Source: a virus. Taken from it: a stretch of DNA of 29,975 nucleotides. Below, one piece after another: positions 3,666-20,726 of the stretch. Numbering within the stretch: the stretch's first letter is position 1; each line of letters opens with the position of its first letter. The notes below the pieces were generated by a model. It saw nothing but the letters and a program-made list of their open reading frames with translations, was not told the DNA's origin and made no database searches. Both the position numbers and the translations under genes were made by a program. The DNA lies in IMG/VR virus record IMGVR_UViG_3300000405_000026, positions 1 to 29,975 of that record. One strand, given 5' to 3'.

Positions 3666-3872
3666 ATGGAAACAAGAGAACTACTGTACAATTTATATTT
3701 TCACTACCAAAATAAAGTGGTGAAATGCAGGAATGAAATATCAATCATTCGTAAGGCGAAAACCCTTTCAAATACAGATGATCGCAGACATCAATTAGAT
3801 GTAGAGGTTGCCTGCTATCATGATTTCATGCGGGATTTAACGAAAAAATTTAAACTGGATTTTTCAAAATGA
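3666..3872 (+). CDS. Small helical hypothetical protein
   Basis: This 68-aa protein is predicted to be almost entirely alpha-helical, with charged and hydrophobic residues alternating as in a helical hairpin (METRELLYNLYFHYQNKVVKCRNEI...). Its leader (3647-3665) is almost identical to the one before the gene at 4400. Its stop overlaps the next start as ATGA (3869-3872), so the two are translationally coupled. No function can be assigned. Confidence 0.65.
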   Translation: METRELLYNLYFHYQNKVVKCRNEISIIRKAKTLSNTDDRRHQLDVEVACYHDFMRDLTKKFKLDFSK

Positions 3873-4183
3873 GCCACACAAGAGTAAAAACAACATATAG
3901 TGTTGAAGGCGCACACGCAAGCACGGAAACAGTAGATTTGTATTGCCACCACAACCACAGTAGTGATTGCGTCACGTTTCACCATAAAGACGGTAAAATG
4001 CCTGTTATGGCTTTTGAATCATGGGTAACTGGTGACGACTTGTGGGATGCAATGGAAAGATTAATGTTTCCTTTTGAAGAGGGATGGGGCGGGGAACTAA
4101 GAGACAAAGTTGAATATTACTACGTTGCCCCTTGGCAAACGGAAGCAAAAAAACAATCACATCATAAAACACCACCCAAATGA
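3869..4183 (+). CDS. Hypothetical protein, His-rich
   Basis: This 104-aa protein is coupled to genes on both sides by ATGA overlaps (3869-3872 and 4180-4183). It has a histidine-rich segment (YCHHNHSSDCVTFHHKDG, about 29-46) with two cysteines, which could bind metal, followed by an aromatic acidic region (EEGWGGELRDKVEYYYVAPW). The His/Cys cluster is seen directly; metal binding is inference. The tight coupling argues that this string of tiny genes is really translated. Confidence 0.6.
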   Translation: MSHTRVKTTYSVEGAHASTETVDLYCHHNHSSDCVTFHHKDGKMPVMAFESWVTGDDLWDAMERLMFPFEEGWGGELRDKVEYYYVAPWQTEAKKQSHHKTPPK

Positions 4184-6545: not shown

Positions 6546-7730
6546 TTAAGAGATTTTACACATTATTTTTTTCGTTCCTTTCAGCTTTTCAATCGTTTTG
6601 CCTGTGATTTTTGCAATTCGTTCAGCAAAAGCCATGTCCTTTTCCCGCTGGCAGTCGTCAACAAAGATAATCGCTTCCTTTTTGAAAGACTCAATTATTT
6701 CGTCAGGCATTTTGTATCGGCCTCCGTCAACGCCATACGGCCCGTCTATCACTACAACATCTGAAAGTGCTATGTGCTGCTTGTCGTATCGGTTAAGCGA
6801 ATACCAGCCATGAATGGTCAGCGGCCTGAAATCGTTTAAGTCCGTCTTGAATTTTAGGTCGTGCTCGAATGAAACCAAATCACCCGAAAATTCATGCAGG
6901 TAGGGTGTTGATCGGCCACTGCCAAATTCAACAACAATACTTTTTGGTTCAATCACACTGGCAATTGCTTTGATATGGCCCCATTCAATCGAAGCATCGC
7001 CGAAATGATATTGGGGCTTTTTGTAAATATAATCTGTAACCCAACAGGCCGAACCAATTGAATTAATGATTTTGGTTTGTTCAGAATCATCCTTTGCGAC
7101 CGTTTTCCAAATAGCTGAATCTTGACTGCCTGGCTGTTCTTTGACAAATCCATGCGCGCGTTGCAGACAAATCAGCGGGATATTATGTTTATGTGCGTAA
7201 AAGCACAGGGAAGGGTCGGTTGCGTTTACAAAAGCAAACTGGTTTAATTGCGGCGCGTTTTTCACGCATGTAGCAATTGCGCCGGTGCCCAACATGTCAA
7301 CATAACCGGTCTCCCGCTTTTCGTGATAGCAGTAGAAAATTAACCTTCCATTGTCGTTGTAATAGCTTTCTATTGGATATTTCGCGTACCTACTACCATG
7401 CAACCCTACGATTGAATCCGGGTGCAAATAGGCCATATCTGCCATGTAGCCGATATACCCTTTATCTGCAATCAAATCGTCGTCAATCGTAATATAAACT
7501 CCCGATTTTTGCTTCTCAACATTGGCAAATTTACCAGCGGCCCCAGTATCCTCAGCTGGGATCAAGGCATTAATATTGAGCTTGATTTCATTTAGCCAAG
7601 CATAGGGCATCACGTCATTGAAGCAAATATTCACCACATCTGGCAAGGTATTTTGCTTTTCGATTGACTCGAGACAAGCCCTTAAAAAAGGCTCCCGCGC
7701 TTTGTGCGTGGCTATGTTCAGGCTTATCAT
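6546..7730 (-). CDS. Glycosyltransferase fused to a methyltransferase-like domain
   Basis: I place the start at 7730, where the ATG overlaps the upstream TGA as ATGA; a longer form from 7799 would overlap that gene by 73 bases. The 394-aa product begins with a GT-A-like domain (MISLNIATHKAREPFLRACLESI; acidic DDD at 83-85 as the metal-binding DxD-type motif; about 1-200). From about 245 follows a Rossmann-type domain with VVEFGSGRST (266-275), VVVIDGPYG (325-333) and IIFVDDC (354-360), as in class I SAM-dependent methyltransferases. It probably modifies a glycan or a protein-linked sugar. Its neighbours are another glycosyltransferase and virion genes, so the target may be the virion or the host surface. 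Acceptor and donor cannot be read from sequence. Confidence 0.75.
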   Translation of the reverse strand: MISLNIATHKAREPFLRACLESIEKQNTLPDVVNICFNDVMPYAWLNEIKLNINALIPAEDTGAAGKFANVEKQKSGVYITIDDDLIADKGYIGYMADMAYLHPDSIVGLHGSRYAKYPIESYYNDNGRLIFYCYHEKRETGYVDMLGTGAIATCVKNAPQLNQFAFVNATDPSLCFYAHKHNIPLICLQRAHGFVKEQPGSQDSAIWKTVAKDDSEQTKIINSIGSACWVTDYIYKKPQYHFGDASIEWGHIKAIASVIEPKSIVVEFGSGRSTPYLHEFSGDLVSFEHDLKFKTDLNDFRPLTIHGWYSLNRYDKQHIALSDVVVIDGPYGVDGGRYKMPDEIIESFKKEAIIFVDDCQREKDMAFAERIAKITGKTIEKLKGTKKIMCKIS

Positions 7731-8602
7731 CCGTTGACGTGTTTGGTTTTTGAAAGTGCGTGAATTTTCCCAATTTGCGGGAACTTCGTGCGGCGGCAAA
7801 TGTCGCTTATCAGCCTATCGTACCAATCTCGGTATCGGCCCCTAACGAGCGGTTGACTCTTTCCGCTTGCAGATCCAGCGCCGTACATTGATAAAATGCA
7901 GTACTTTTCTTGAATCTCCATCAAAGTGTCAGGGTAAAGCTTATGCCCAAAAAACACGACTGGCAGACCGCAATCAGGGTCATGGTTAATTTGCGCACAA
8001 CTCCCGGCAAACACCAATTCATCGGGAACAGTGCCGCCCCAATGGTTCATAAGGTCAGCCATAGGAAACTCAAAATTCTGCAAAAGCCGCTGGTAAAATT
8101 CATCAAGTTCTTTTCCCTTATTGAAAATAGCAAAACTGCTTTGGATGCTGGAGTACTTTTGATCTTCTGAAAGACTGAAATACTCCCAAATTTTTTCATT
8201 GGTTGCCCACCAGGCGTAGTTAATTTCGTCATTCACACCGCCTCTCCCAACCACTTCAGTTGCATAGAATTTATCGATTTCAAACAGCTTGGAAATATCC
8301 TTTATGCAAAGACCGTCAACATCGAAATAAATGTTTTGGTCATAGGGCAAATATTTGATAAGATTGATTTTGGCTTTGCCGGGGTCTATTTTGTTTTTGG
8401 TAAAGTAATCCTCTTTCTCAAGCTCAATAACCTTGTCGAACAGGCCCTTATATTGCTCGGTTAAATAACCCAAATGACCGTCTCCAATGATAGAAATCAA
8501 AACGTCAGGGTTGTAGTAGCGAATACTCAACGCCATTTGTCCAGCGAAAAATACGTATTCGCGTGAACCAAAAGCCAATAATATGACGCCCTTACTTTTC
8601 AA
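7727..8602 (-). CDS. GT-A-fold glycosyltransferase (GT8-like)
   Basis: This 291-aa protein (KGVILLAFGSREYVFFAGQMALSIRYY...) opens with the nucleotide-sugar-binding strand and helix of GT-A enzymes. It has DQNIYFDVDGLCIKDI (88-103), where D94-V-D96 is the DxD motif coordinating Mn and the sugar nucleotide. A later segment HWGGTVPDELVF (about 187-198) is like the acceptor-side loop of GT8/glycogenin-like enzymes. The start is a TTG at 8602, because an in-frame stop lies a few codons upstream and no ATG is available; it overlaps the preceding gene by 11 bases. It couples by ATGA to the following glycosyltransferase-methyltransferase gene. Substrate unknown. Confidence 0.75.
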   Translation of the reverse strand: MKSKGVILLAFGSREYVFFAGQMALSIRYYNPDVLISIIGDGHLGYLTEQYKGLFDKVIELEKEDYFTKNKIDPGKAKINLIKYLPYDQNIYFDVDGLCIKDISKLFEIDKFYATEVVGRGGVNDEINYAWWATNEKIWEYFSLSEDQKYSSIQSSFAIFNKGKELDEFYQRLLQNFEFPMADLMNHWGGTVPDELVFAGSCAQINHDPDCGLPVVFFGHKLYPDTLMEIQEKYCILSMYGAGSASGKSQPLVRGRYRDWYDRLISDICRRTKFPQIGKIHALSKTKHVNG

Positions 8603-8934: not shown

Positions 8935-8941
8935 CTTAGGG

Positions 8942-9463
8942 TTAAAAAATGTTTGCAGGTGCAGCAAAAATACTTGGGTCGTCAATATTTCTCCATGAAC
9001 CAAGCATAGAAAAATGCTGAGAATCTGTCCTATCATCTGCCACCAAACGGCTTCCAGAAACCGAAATTGAATCGGTTACGAAAGTCACGCGGTCTGCATC
9101 GCATTCGTACAACAATGCTCCAGCGATCGAAGTTCGACGCTTCAGTGAGTTGTAAAATGCAACATTCGCTTCAATTACATTTTGATCCATCAAGGTAAAT
9201 GTGCGGTCATAGGTAATTGTCGGGTCAACTTTGCAAGAAATGTAAGATGTTCGGGTTACTCCACTTGCTTCTGGAAGTCCGATTTTCACATCTTTGGCGC
9301 GTATTGCTTCACCAAGGTTGATCATTTCCTGAATTTCTACACCGTCCGAAGGATTTACGGGCAGGTAGTTCGGAAAAAACACAATGGCTGAAATACCGCC
9401 GCCGAAACTTTCCTCGCATAAGTTTTCACTATACGGATCAAGTGCTGTTTGGCAATAACTCAT
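8942..9463 (-). CDS. Virion structural protein, candidate major tail (tube) protein
   Basis: This 173-aa protein (MSYCQTALDPYSENLCEESFGGGISAIVFFPNYLPV...) is rich in strands: EIQEMINLGEAIRAKDVKIGLPE, then SYISCKVDPTITYDRTFTLMD, then RVTFVTDSISVSGSRLV. It has no enzyme motif. Size, beta-rich character, its place at the end of the tail block and the strong terminator behind it fit a highly made tail-tube or other repeated virion subunit. Against this, major tail proteins usually lie upstream of the tape measure gene, whereas this one is downstream. A minor tail or decoration protein is the alternative. The start follows an A-rich leader (CTCAAACAAAATG). Confidence 0.45.
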   Translation of the reverse strand: MSYCQTALDPYSENLCEESFGGGISAIVFFPNYLPVNPSDGVEIQEMINLGEAIRAKDVKIGLPEASGVTRTSYISCKVDPTITYDRTFTLMDQNVIEANVAFYNSLKRRTSIAGALLYECDADRVTFVTDSISVSGSRLVADDRTDSQHFSMLGSWRNIDDPSIFAAPANIF

Positions 9464-11561: not shown

Positions 11562-13576
11562 ATATTCTGTTGCTTTCGATTGTAAAGTAACTCAATTTCT
11601 GTTTCTCCCGTTTCAAAGTTACGGCTTATTCTTTTTCCGTATGCAATTCGCGGGTCATTGTTTCCGGTGTCAAGATTGAATTGAACCACTGGATTGACGC
11701 GAACAGCTTCCCATTCACTTTCTTCAATGCCTAATTTTACAGCGGAGTATATGTTTACAAAAGCTGAATTAGGGTCGAAGGTTTGCCAGTCACCGCCTGA
11801 AGTTGGCGTTTCAATTGTTCCAAATCTGCCACCTTGAAAATTTAAGCCTAAGATTTGTGGTGATTCGTCAAAAATAACACCATTGCTTACGCTACCAAAA
11901 AATTTTGCTTCAACTTCAATTGTTTCTCCTACTACTAGAAATATACTTTTTTCGGCATACAAGGTAAATTTATAACCTAATTCAGGCGGGATTTGAAACG
12001 TTTGACTAACTGAAATAAGCTGAGTGAGCGGGTTGCCGTTAATTTCCTGCGTCAAGGCAATAAAAACAGGTTGTTCAAATGTTCCATCTCCAATAGCAAA
12101 ACGAAACTTATCAAGCCTTATAGAATAACGTAACACGTTTAAATTAAGCGCGGTTGTTTCACAAATAACAGACGCAAAAAAGCGGTAAATTCCAGAATAA
12201 GGGGCGGTATATTTGAATGTTGCAGGGTCGTAGGCATTGTCCTCATCAAAATTTGGTGGCGTTGAATCATCATCATAAGGCCACGGGGCTTCGTCGCGGA
12301 TAACCGTTGAAGACGGAAATTGTGGAACAAGACTTAAAAACGATTGGTTGGGTAAAGAAATGGTTTGTTCGGCTTGAAAATCGGTATCGAGTATGCCAGA
12401 ATTGAGAATTAAATCACCGTAAAGGCTGAATCTTTGCGCGACATTCGAGTTCAATAGTTGCTCGTTATACAGGAATCTATCAAGGTAATATAAGCCCCGG
12501 ACCGCTTGCGATGTTGCTAAATCATATTGAACAAATACCATGTCGTCGTCGTATTCATCGCTACCATTCATCACAATGTCCTGAATCACATTCGTATCAA
12601 TCACGTAGCTGCTCACCAAATCGAGTTCATTTGACCCGCCGTTTATGCCGCTGATGGTGTATGTTTCTTCTGAAAACCCAAAAAATTGGAAGTACGGCAA
12701 GCCAAAAGCTGTATCGTAATCCCGGATAAATTCTGTTGAACCAAGACGCACCGTCGAATACATTTGGTCAAAATCAAGCGATCGTTTAAGGTCAGCAACA
12801 TTCTGAATTTGAATCACGTTTTCCGACTGGAATAGATAGGCCGCTGTTTCAAGTCTCAAAATTGGATTTGTGAGCGGATCCGTTATTATCAAATAAAGGT
12901 TGTATTTTTTCCAAGCATTATCGAAGAGTCTTTGCAGGCTTGCCAAGGTGTTTTGCGGCGAAGATGGTGTTCGTAAATTTAAGCCGGTAGCAATTGCTAT
13001 CCGTTCATTTCCGGGCAATTCATCGTACCATGTTGATTCGAATCCAACCGTATTATCCGACAAATAAGCAATGACCATTGAAAAAACGTCTTTTAAATCA
13101 AAGGCTTTACGGGTGTCGGCTAGGTAAACGCCTGAATTGACATTGAAAACAGCCAATTCAATCGGTAAAATCTTCGGCATATCTTCGCCGGAAATCGTTT
13201 TTTCTGCGCCACAATAAACCTCAGATTTAAGGTTGTTGAATACGCGGCTTTGATAGGTTGCGTCGTTAATGTCGCAAAGAACCGTGAACTTGTTCAAATT
13301 CCACTCACAGTCAACCATGCGAATAATGCAATTACCGACAAGCTTGTTTTCATTAAATCGGTCGTCTCGAATTTGAAGGGTAACGAATGAGTTAAGATTT
13401 TCTTGGTATTTCGCCTCAAGAGCATCGCGGCCATTGCCAACAAAAGTCAATTGAATAGGGTAATCAAATCTTAAAATTCTCTTCTCGCTGTCTAAAAATA
13501 GCTCTTCGGTGAAGTCTTGAAACCCGTCCGGTTCGTCAATCAGGGCACCATCTATGTAGAAATTGAATCCCGGCAT
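11558..13576 (-). CDS. Large tail-tip / baseplate protein
   Basis: The 672-aa protein starts MPGFNFYIDGALIDEPDGFQ and is beta-rich throughout. The N-terminal 250 residues look like a baseplate-hub or distal-tail type fold, with LQIRDDRFNENKLVGNCIIRMVDCEW and a later KKYNLYLIITDPLTNPILRLE. Near residues 450-490 it has TFKYTAPYSGIYRFFASVICE, a C1q/TNF-like trimeric module of the kind used at fibre tips. It is the first gene after the tape measure block apart from the 97-aa protein, the usual place for tail-tip hub proteins in siphoviruses. Its start lies 24 bases after the structured element described for this leader. The hub assignment is by position and fold impression. Confidence 0.6.
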   Translation of the reverse strand: MPGFNFYIDGALIDEPDGFQDFTEELFLDSEKRILRFDYPIQLTFVGNGRDALEAKYQENLNSFVTLQIRDDRFNENKLVGNCIIRMVDCEWNLNKFTVLCDINDATYQSRVFNNLKSEVYCGAEKTISGEDMPKILPIELAVFNVNSGVYLADTRKAFDLKDVFSMVIAYLSDNTVGFESTWYDELPGNERIAIATGLNLRTPSSPQNTLASLQRLFDNAWKKYNLYLIITDPLTNPILRLETAAYLFQSENVIQIQNVADLKRSLDFDQMYSTVRLGSTEFIRDYDTAFGLPYFQFFGFSEETYTISGINGGSNELDLVSSYVIDTNVIQDIVMNGSDEYDDDMVFVQYDLATSQAVRGLYYLDRFLYNEQLLNSNVAQRFSLYGDLILNSGILDTDFQAEQTISLPNQSFLSLVPQFPSSTVIRDEAPWPYDDDSTPPNFDEDNAYDPATFKYTAPYSGIYRFFASVICETTALNLNVLRYSIRLDKFRFAIGDGTFEQPVFIALTQEINGNPLTQLISVSQTFQIPPELGYKFTLYAEKSIFLVVGETIEVEAKFFGSVSNGVIFDESPQILGLNFQGGRFGTIETPTSGGDWQTFDPNSAFVNIYSAVKLGIEESEWEAVRVNPVVQFNLDTGNNDPRIAYGKRISRNFETGETEIELLYNRKQQNI

Positions 13577-13591
13577 AGTGCGAAAGTAAAC

Positions 13592-13628
13592 AAAAAAGCC
13601 CTAAGATTGGTTAAAAAATGGGGGGCTT
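13592..13628 (-). terminator. Terminator-like hairpin just upstream of the tail-tip gene
   Basis: On the minus strand AAGCCC (13628-13623) pairs with GGGCTT (13601-13596), followed by a T6 run. The loop of 21 bases is long. It lies 16 bases before the ATG at 13576, so it would act as an attenuator rather than an operon end. The same bases take part in the pseudoknot-like element beside it, so the two folds exclude each other. Confidence 0.35.
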
Positions 13629-13770
13629 AGATGTCCAGTTATTCCCCGTCTTGGGACATTCCACGGTACTTGTATTTTATTACAAGTTTCCACCATTTCA
13701 GGTTTCTTGAGCCGTTTAAAAAAATGACGGGCTAGATGTTCTCGTGTCAGCCCCCCTAGAGAACCCACGG
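13613..13770 (-). repeat. Tandem pair of pseudoknot-like structured elements in the tail operon leader
   Basis: Two copies about 105 bases apart (13613-13666 and 13718-13770, plus coordinates) share TTAAAAAATG at one end, a central TAGATGT and CCACGG at the other end. In each copy two stems cross. In copy 1 GGGG (13620-13625) pairs with CCCC (13644-13647) and ATGTCC (13631-13636) with GGACAT (13654-13659). In copy 2 GGGCT (13729-13733) pairs with AGCCC (13749-13753) and GTTCTC (13738-13743) with GAGAAC (13759-13764). The arms differ between copies while staying complementary. A perfect 7-bp hairpin (13668-13687) lies between them. A 57-codon minus frame (13774-13601) also spans the region, but shared blocks fall in different codon positions in the two copies, favouring RNA or DNA structure over protein. 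Confidence 0.5.
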
Positions 13771-13783
13771 ACATTTAATGTTT

Positions 13784-14077
13784 TTATTCCCCTACTGGAA
13801 TCTCACCACTGGGAAACCTTGGCTTTAAAGTGTTGTTTATCTCTGCCAAACCTTCCATTTCAGCCAGTAGCGCATCAATAAAAGCTAAATTTGGGGCATC
13901 CTTTTCAATTTCAATTAGTGCTAATTTATGCAGTTGGTGCATTTTATTTGCAAAAATAGGCGTATTCGTTGCTGACTGAATGGCTTGCATAAAATCAAAA
14001 GCCGCATTCGTTATTTTAAAAAATGTCCGTAGTTTTTCGACTGTCTTATTCATGCCCAAATTTAAGGATTCAAGCAT
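13784..14077 (-). CDS. Hypothetical helical protein between tape measure and tail-tip genes
   Basis: This 97-aa, almost entirely helical protein (MLESLNLGMNKTVEKLRTFFKITNAAFDFMQAIQS...) has a long amphipathic stretch in the middle (MHQLHKLALIEIEKDAPNLAFIDALLAEMEGLAEINN). It starts 21 bases after the tape measure stop; a second ATG at 14053 is a possible alternative start. It may be a tail assembly factor by position, but no family is recognised. The 207-base gap behind it holds the structured element and is the longest non-coding stretch within the tail block. Confidence 0.55.
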   Translation of the reverse strand: MLESLNLGMNKTVEKLRTFFKITNAAFDFMQAIQSATNTPIFANKMHQLHKLALIEIEKDAPNLAFIDALLAEMEGLAEINNTLKPRFPSGEIPVGE

Positions 14078-17494: not shown

Positions 17495-17840
17495 TCCGAT
17501 CAATGGCTTTTACGATGTGATTTATCAACCAAATAGCCCCAGCACACACGACGCAGAAAACTATCCAATGCCGCCATGAATCACCTTGTAGCAATAGCCA
17601 ATAGTACACCGTACCCCAAAAACTAGACATACAAACATTGCAATATATCGTAGGTTTCAAGATGAATTTTTGCCATAAAGGGCGGTCAGTCCAATCATAA
17701 GATTCGCCCTTTGGTTGCCTGTGATTGTAAAAGCGTTCCTTGCTGTTTTCATCACCAAAGAACTCAAAGTACCCGTCAATGACCACGGACACACCAAAAA
17801 CGAACGCGATCAGCCCTAAAAGGGAAATTACTATTGTCAT
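17487..17840 (-). CDS. Membrane protein with CxxC motif (DUF1360-like)
   Basis: The 117-aa protein has an N-terminal hydrophobic segment (VISLLGLIAFVFGVSVVI) and a second hydrophobic region in the C-terminal third (WIVFCVVCAGAIWLINHIV). Between them KPTIYCNVCMSSFWGTVYYW carries a C-x-x-C pair followed by SSFWGT. That last pattern recalls the DUF1360 type of small membrane proteins in phages, but I offer it tentatively. The start overlaps the stop of the FISUMP gene as ATGA. It lies just before the chaperone gene, so it is probably co-translated with structural genes. Function unknown. Confidence 0.6.
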   Translation of the reverse strand: MTIVISLLGLIAFVFGVSVVIDGYFEFFGDENSKERFYNHRQPKGESYDWTDRPLWQKFILKPTIYCNVCMSSFWGTVYYWLLLQGDSWRHWIVFCVVCAGAIWLINHIVKAIDRNA

Positions 17841-18565
17841 ATTGGAAGACTTGAATCACCGTTTACGTATGCCCATGCACCCGTGGTTAATGCGGCCCAT
17901 GTAGCGTTATCTTGCCCTGTTGGAATGCTGTCACCGTTATTGTATTTCGTTGTTCTGAGCGATTGTTGTAGCCAATACTGCGAACCTATTTGCACCCACG
18001 TGTAAAGATTTCCATCGGCATCGGTGACGGTGGGTGTTGGGGGTAGGGAATCAGAAACACCGCGAATTGATCTGCCGTAACCTCTAGCTACAAAAAATGA
18101 GTTTGTAAAAAATTGAGCGGTATCAGCGGCTATACCCCATAAAACAGTATTTCCAACACTGTCTGAACTCAATAAATCAATTCCATATCCAAGATTGGTA
18201 AAAGCTCCATTAAACCCCCTTACACCTGATGGGAATGCTCTAAATTCAAAATCATCCGTTGCCCCTGCATTTGGAGTATCCCATCTTGGTTGCGCTGTTG
18301 GCGAAGTCCGGGTAGATTTCATTTTACCACCCGCAACCGCAGTGCCGCCTAAAAATGTCCTTAGTGACGTGTAGTCCGCATTAGTCGGCACCCGAAACCC
18401 ACTCGGAGCAACACCCCTTGCATCAGTTGCTGCGTACCAATTATAGAGCAATCCGTAACCAAGGGCAATTGAAGGCGGTGGAGTTGGCCCACCCCCCTGT
18501 GGCTTATTCCAAAACCTCTTTTTCACCCATGAACCGTGACATGACCTAATTTTATCGCATTTCAT
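17837..18565 (-). CDS. FISUMP-domain protein, circularly permuted
   Basis: The 242-aa protein carries Fibrobacter succinogenes major paralogous domain (FISUMP) motifs. GYGLLYNWYAATDARGVAPS, then GFRVPTNADYTSLRTFLGG, GGKMKSTR, PNAGATDDFEFRAFPSGVR and a GRSIRGVSD end occupy about 36-170. A Pro/Thr linker (about 171-178) leads to DADGNLYTWVQIGSQYWLQQ and a SLRTTKYNNGDSIPTG block ending AWAYVNGD. In the usual FISUMP order the DGN..Y..V.IG.Q.W block comes first and the YG.LYNWYA block second, so the two halves are swapped here. The domain is secreted or surface-exposed in Bacteroidota and in phages probably decorates the virion or binds the host. Both ends are coupled by ATGA overlaps. No signal peptide is seen, as expected for a virion protein. 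Confidence 0.75.
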   Translation of the reverse strand: MKCDKIRSCHGSWVKKRFWNKPQGGGPTPPPSIALGYGLLYNWYAATDARGVAPSGFRVPTNADYTSLRTFLGGTAVAGGKMKSTRTSPTAQPRWDTPNAGATDDFEFRAFPSGVRGFNGAFTNLGYGIDLLSSDSVGNTVLWGIAADTAQFFTNSFFVARGYGRSIRGVSDSLPPTPTVTDADGNLYTWVQIGSQYWLQQSLRTTKYNNGDSIPTGQDNATWAALTTGAWAYVNGDSSLPI

Positions 18566-20636: not shown

Positions 20637-20644
20637 CAAACTTA
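20637..20644 (-). promoter_or_regulatory. Promoter box for the minus-strand replication/tail unit
   Basis: TAAGTTTG on the minus strand (20644-20637) matches the Bacteroidota -7 consensus TAnnTTTG; ATTG strings lie 16 and 22 bases further upstream at about the -33 region. It precedes the HTH gene start (20620) by 16 bases. Confidence 0.5.
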
Positions 20645-20726
20645 GGTAAAAACTTTAAACCAATCACAATTTTAAAATATTTAATCTTTTAACAGTTTTT
20701 GGCTTTTAGATTTGGAGCGCCCGACG

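Follow-up and report, generated by a model that had tools for sequence, protein, structure and literature searches.

What is the doubled, non-coding element in the longest intergenic space of a phage's minus-strand gene block? The record that carries it, IMG/VR virus record IMGVR_UViG_3300000405_000026, is 29,975 bases long and was analysed as a whole (hereafter, the window). The gap of 207 nt sits among minus-strand genes including those of the tail, and the minus strand is thus taken as the transcribed one. Protein kinships suggest that the source is most likely a tailed phage of Bacteroidota, since its portal is distant kin of that of Polaribacter phage P12002L/S, the core of its tape measure protein is related to those of Porphyromonas and Prevotella prophages, and the best-matching relative, at 68% identity in the tape-measure core, is a contig (L095) from a Flavobacteriales MAG. 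In minus-strand order, the gap holds a short inverted repeat (ACAT-TAA-ATGT), the first copy of the element (c2), an AT-rich spacer, a 7-bp hairpin, the second copy (c1), TTAGGGCTTTTTT and the start codon of the 672-aa gene, 35 nt downstream of c1 (Table 1).

Table 1. Coordinates of the element, of the gap containing it and of the adjacent genes; helix arms are given as read on the minus strand
Feature	Position	Strand	Remarks
Tail-region gene, 672 aa	11558..13576	minus	downstream of the element
Non-coding gap, 207 nt	13577..13783	minus	contains both copies
Terminator-like hairpin	13592..13628	minus	AAGCCC (13628-13623) / GGGCTT (13601-13596); 21-nt loop; T6 13597-13592
57-codon ORF	13601-13774	minus	non-coding codon usage
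Copy c1	13611..13666	minus	56 nt; 13666-13611 as read
c1 S1	13659-13654 / 13636-13631	minus	ATGTCC / GGACAT
c1 S2	13647-13644 / within 13625-13620	minus	GGGG / CCCC, the latter being four of six C
c1 T6 run	13618-13613	minus
Perfect 7-bp hairpin	13668..13687	minus	ACTTGTA-ATAAAA-TACAAGT, read from sequence; one base 5' of CCGTGG of c1
Copy c2	13716..13770	minus	55 nt; 13770-13716 as read
c2 S1	13764-13759 / 13743-13738	minus	GTTCTC / GAGAAC
c2 S2	13753-13749 / 13733-13729	minus	GGGCT / AGCCC
c2 T7 run	13724-13718	minus	ATCT is a linker in c2
Short inverted repeat	13771..13781	minus	ACAT-TAA-ATGT, directly 5' of CCGTGG of c2; may be chance
97-aa gene	13784..14077	minus	just upstream of the element
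Tape measure protein gene, 878 aa	14099..16735	minus	upstream neighbour of the 97-aa gene and the element

The original prediction, made from the letters alone, described two copies about 105 bases apart with common flanks, two crossing helices of similar geometry in each, and a run of six or seven T behind each on the minus strand. All of these features were recovered. The copies are 104-105 bases apart and about 58% identical; c2 reads CCGTGG, GTTCTC, TAGGG, GGGCT, GACAC, GAGAAC, ATCT, AGCCC, GTCA and seven T, and c1 reads CCGTGG, A, ATGTCC, CAAGAC, GGGG, AATAACT, GGACAT, CTAAG, CCCCCC, A and six T. They have CCGTGG, ACATCTA and the T run in common, and in both the six-base arms of helix S1 cross those of helix S2, which joins a G-rich to a C-rich arm. 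The U tract starts about 1-4 nt after the GC-rich 3' arm of S2 in either copy. GC content reaches 56% and 61% in the copies, while the spacer has 33% and the remaining gaps 34.5%, and such GC islands are a typical sign of structured RNA within AT-rich genomes. Further pairings are conceivable. GGGCTT of TTAGGGCTTTTTT is able to pair with AAGCCC of c1, giving a terminator-like hairpin of -6.7 kcal/mol whose 5' arm overlaps the C run of c1. A closing helix, GUGG/YCAU, is possible around each copy and was seen in the nested fold of c1; it is made of conserved bases and proves nothing. Directly after c1 there is also a copy of TTTTTAACC, of which the window has 7 occurrences where 1.3 would be expected (positions 8940, 13609, 2989, 4374 and 25578 among them); three copies stand at gene ends (stop TAA, then CC), and we regard it as a shared gene-end or upstream motif.

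The similarity of c1 and c2 was not matched by any of 2000 dinucleotide-shuffled copy pairs. Either pseudoknot considered singly is only slightly out of the ordinary, with p of about 0.018 and 0.007 in shuffles that keep the shared flanks, and 54-mers with S1 of at least six and S2 of at least four pairs occupy 4-5% of window positions. Concordant crossing helices in matching places are far rarer, their frequency among shuffled pairs lying between 5.6e-6, where the shared flanks were kept, and 1.2e-5, with position tolerances that were chosen after the data had been seen; corrected for this, the value is by our own estimate perhaps 1e-3. We also scanned 264 records (2.66 Mb) with a descriptor (S1>=6, S2>=4 with 3 GC, loops of 2-9, T5+ within 5 nt), the loop limits of which likewise come from c1 and c2. 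Ten sites were found, namely c1, c2 and eight others, and c1 and c2 formed the only tandem pair, also when S1>=5 was allowed. The predicted simultaneous change of both strands of the arms holds only once a 2-nt gap is placed. In the MAFFT alignment, the 5' arms of S1 are in exact register (columns 8-13), whereas those on the 3' side are shifted by 2 nt (31-36 versus 29-34), the helix having slipped relative to the conserved ACATCTA. After re-gapping by 2 nt, both partners are changed in 4 of the 6 S1 pairs and in one or more S2 pairs. Folding energies do not favour the pseudoknots, which are roughly iso-energetic with nested alternatives, and in their nested minimum-energy folds the copies gain no stability over shuffled sequences (z +1.16 and -0.10). 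The notable point is that a predicted pseudoknot recurs at matching positions in both copies although the letters of its stems differ, a conservation seen in two sequences of one genome with a 2-nt register shift. We consider the pseudoknot structure to be probably real.

No riboswitch or ribozyme had been recognised in the element at the outset, in agreement with Rfam 15, which gave no match at the gathering score over the whole window and none even at E<=10 over positions 13560-13800. DNA similarity searches in phages and plasmids returned nothing or chance matches. Degenerate DNA patterns of the conserved part were searched for in IMG/VR, and the element was absent among the matches inspected, which lacked an upstream CCGTGG as well as a corresponding pair of crossing helices rich in GC. 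Single-protein searches of IMG/VR with four window proteins, in which near-identical records may not show, yielded no relatives. A covariance-model search of phage and Bacteroidota genomes, suggested with the original prediction as a check, was run with a model built from the two sequences and carrying S1 only. It detected no homologue elsewhere in 55 sources comprising the window and related phage loci, and none in about 800 Bacteroidota genomes (399 + 395), in scans where the S1-only model and stricter filters may miss weak relatives. The best outside match (E 0.004 among the 395 genomes) is at chance level and lacks the crossing helices. The element is an orphan for now, with two copies on one metagenomic contig.

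Comparison with related loci places the element in a variable junction. Relatives of the 672-aa protein are found in two genomes (G590 and G534) and two IMG/VR loci (L260 and L261). In G534 (L255/L258) and L260 the tape-measure gene runs into the 672-aa homologue with a short overlap or abutment, and in L261 an unrelated 113-aa gene (3673-4014) fills the space between the two genes with no gap. Since the junction is closed in the former, occupied by the 113-aa gene in L261 and by the 97-aa gene plus the element here, it appears to be an insertion spot for small accessory genes. The 97-aa protein has a homologue of 47% identity in L095, encoded right after the terminase gene terL and without the element; this different location suggests that the 97-aa gene is a mobile accessory gene. 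The element is not a constant companion of either the 97-aa or the 672-aa gene. Judged by this synteny, the 97-aa gene and the element look like a moron-like cassette, absent as it is from the same junction in relatives. A scan for one promoter type, TTG-N17-23-TAnnTTTG, gave no match immediately before 14077 (minus strand) that could serve the 97-aa gene; the nearest match, 14931-14899, is within the tape-measure gene.

Other features of the window were recorded as well. On the minus strand, the sequence at 20637-20669 agrees well with the Bacteroidota promoter (TTG-N-TAAGTTTG) and precedes the gene that opens the minus-strand block. Beside the portal gene, 6546-8602 encodes two proteins with weak resemblance to glycosyltransferases (families 2 and 8); the protein of 7727-8602 is related to one encoded close to the tail genes of G534 (L258 12421-13296). 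The block of the tape-measure gene also encodes a Fib_succ_major domain protein (17837-18565), which is unusual for a phage structural region.

The original prediction allowed for a duplicated RNA or DNA element. An RNA-level role is favoured from the sequence over a DNA-level one, because the arm letters differ yet the pairing is kept, and because the T runs are on the transcribed strand. A DNA-level recombination site was considered and rejected, as the arms differ between the copies and nothing spoke for it. Our tentative reading, to which we give somewhat less than even credence, is that c2 and c1 are tandem weak terminators or attenuators, pseudoknotted and placed after the 97-aa gene within the moron-like cassette. 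The element would be the 3' part of a cassette that came to lie between the tape-measure gene and the tail gene following it by insertion, and its small pseudoknotted RNAs would be co-transcribed with the tail operon. During transcription of each copy, S1 would fold first; the C-rich strand of S2 would then exit the polymerase just before the U6-7 tract and pair with the loop of S1, creating a weak pause or termination site. Two such copies in series, together with the terminator-like hairpin after c1, could lessen read-through from the 97-aa gene into the tail genes, insulating the latter or tuning their expression, perhaps through some putative factor, and the resulting transcripts would keep a knotted 3' end. 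Partial termination or pausing is the simplest mechanism, since a GC-rich 3' arm of S2 followed by U6-7 occurs twice after an accessory gene. Our caution has its reasons. Taken alone as a terminator stem, S2 has 4-5 bp and is weak (-5.7 and -7.1 kcal/mol), far weaker than the ordinary intrinsic terminator of this phage (8897-8942, minus strand; 9-bp hairpin, T7, -14.8 kcal/mol), which lies mid-block after the gene at 8942-9463, and the terminator scan flagged neither c1 nor c2. The spacing of 4 nt between S2 and the T run in c2 is above the usual, the energies of the pseudoknots about equal those of nested folds, the two copies come from one genome, and the promoter scan gave the 97-aa gene no promoter of its own.

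An unlikely alternative is a cis-acting leader, riboswitch-like or protein-binding, for translation or transcription of the 672-aa gene, the 5' region of which the element occupies. Its conserved and presumably unpaired CCGTGG and ATCTA would befit ligand or protein sites, and alternative helices overlap at 13628-13620, where the C run of c1 would have two alternative partners, that of S2 and that of the AAGCCC/GGGCTT-T6 hairpin, as in a possible two-state switch. However, S2 formed on the last four C overlaps that hairpin by one base, so that the states are barely exclusive; no such leader precedes the 672-aa gene in relatives, and the leader would belong to no Rfam family matched at E<=10. 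We find it similarly improbable that the element is a functionless remnant of a decayed insertion or gene, that is, two diverged ends of a mobile element or gene with pairing partly due to chance. Its absence from all relatives examined, the variability of the junction, the still open 57-codon frame and the modest p values of the lone pseudoknots would all suit decay, but decay does not readily explain why pairing is matched in both copies despite about 42% divergence, why GC islands stand out and T runs are kept, or why similar DNA was not found in the phages or plasmids searched.

Less probable still is a trans-acting phage non-coding RNA, for instance a decoy of a host RNA-binding toxin. 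There is precedent in pseudo-ToxI of phage PhiTE, a phage-encoded set of tandem pseudoknot repeats that mimic type III antitoxins (PMC3475682), and tandem pseudoknots with a terminator-like hairpin downstream have a similar layout in the antitoxins (PMC5086642). Against this, the unit here is about 105 nt with 50-nt spacers rather than about 36 nt and head-to-tail, the stems differ between the copies, and no ToxN/CptN/TenpN-like toxin was detected with Pfam and PADLOC among the neighbours scanned, the downstream gene encoding the 672-aa tail-region protein.

Very improbable, finally, is a translated 57-aa gene whose repeat mirrors protein structure: its ATG lies 9 nt past the preceding stop and its 57 open codons fit the gap, but it has no protein family and no meaningful tblastn match, and its codon score of -0.162 per codon is far under the coding level (57-codon windows of real genes, mean +0.125, 5th percentile 0.005; out-of-frame windows -0.061), and a protein-coding reading of the gap was rejected on this ground. 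Conservation following codon positions, named at the outset as an observation that would speak against a structured element, was not seen: the copies measure 56 and 55 nt, and since this net difference of 1 nt lies inside their body, the frame is not common to the repeat and no duplicated coding frame has been maintained. The element is real, non-coding and tandemly duplicated, with a likely pseudoknot fold outside known families. Duplication and structure, as originally proposed, are well supported by the shuffles, the descriptor, the non-coding frame and the GC islands; the roles proposed there are candidates.

A wider proposal, which we regard as possible but doubtful, is that the copies represent small regulatory RNAs of a new class, encoded by phages of Bacteroidota and arranged in tandem in their structural-gene operons. 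The members would be H-type pseudoknots of about 55 nt in which CCGUGG and AUCUA are conserved and unpaired and a U tract follows at the 3' end; they might end transcription as pseudoknot-type terminators, or attenuate it by sensing a ligand or a protein. If the element folds and acts as suggested, the phage would have a control element with a pseudoknot in place of a simple hairpin ahead of the U tract, doubled in an operon for virion structure. To our knowledge, little has been described of structured RNAs from the late operons of such phages, and the element, if confirmed, would be a seed for finding an RNA family.

Among known systems, type III antitoxin RNAs (ToxI, CptI and TenpI) and the PhiTE pseudo-ToxI are, like the present element, tandem H-type pseudoknots (PMC5086642, PMC3475682). 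Unlike their near-identical repeats of about 36 nt, there are here two copies at about 105 nt with about 58% identity, and the length of the unit, the conservation of the stems and the lack of a toxin exclude membership. The put RNAs of phage HK022 are sequence-similar structured RNAs of about 70 nt, two per genome, which act in cis on the polymerase; they consist of two stem-loops and lie in early operons, with no pseudoknot reported there (PMC9378689). Whereas put stem-loops are separate, the predicted helices of each copy cross and are followed by a T run, which sets the element apart from that group. Morons are described as horizontally acquired and independently transcribed (PMC6469090). 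The present cassette resembles those of temperate phages in placing an extra gene between conserved genes, and differs in that no promoter was seen before the 97-aa gene and in that its terminators would be pseudoknotted and doubled. The element has in common with intrinsic (Rho-independent) terminators and attenuators that a U tract comes after a GC-rich 3' arm where a gene of an operon ends, and it departs from them in having its arms in crossing helices, weak stems and tandem copies.
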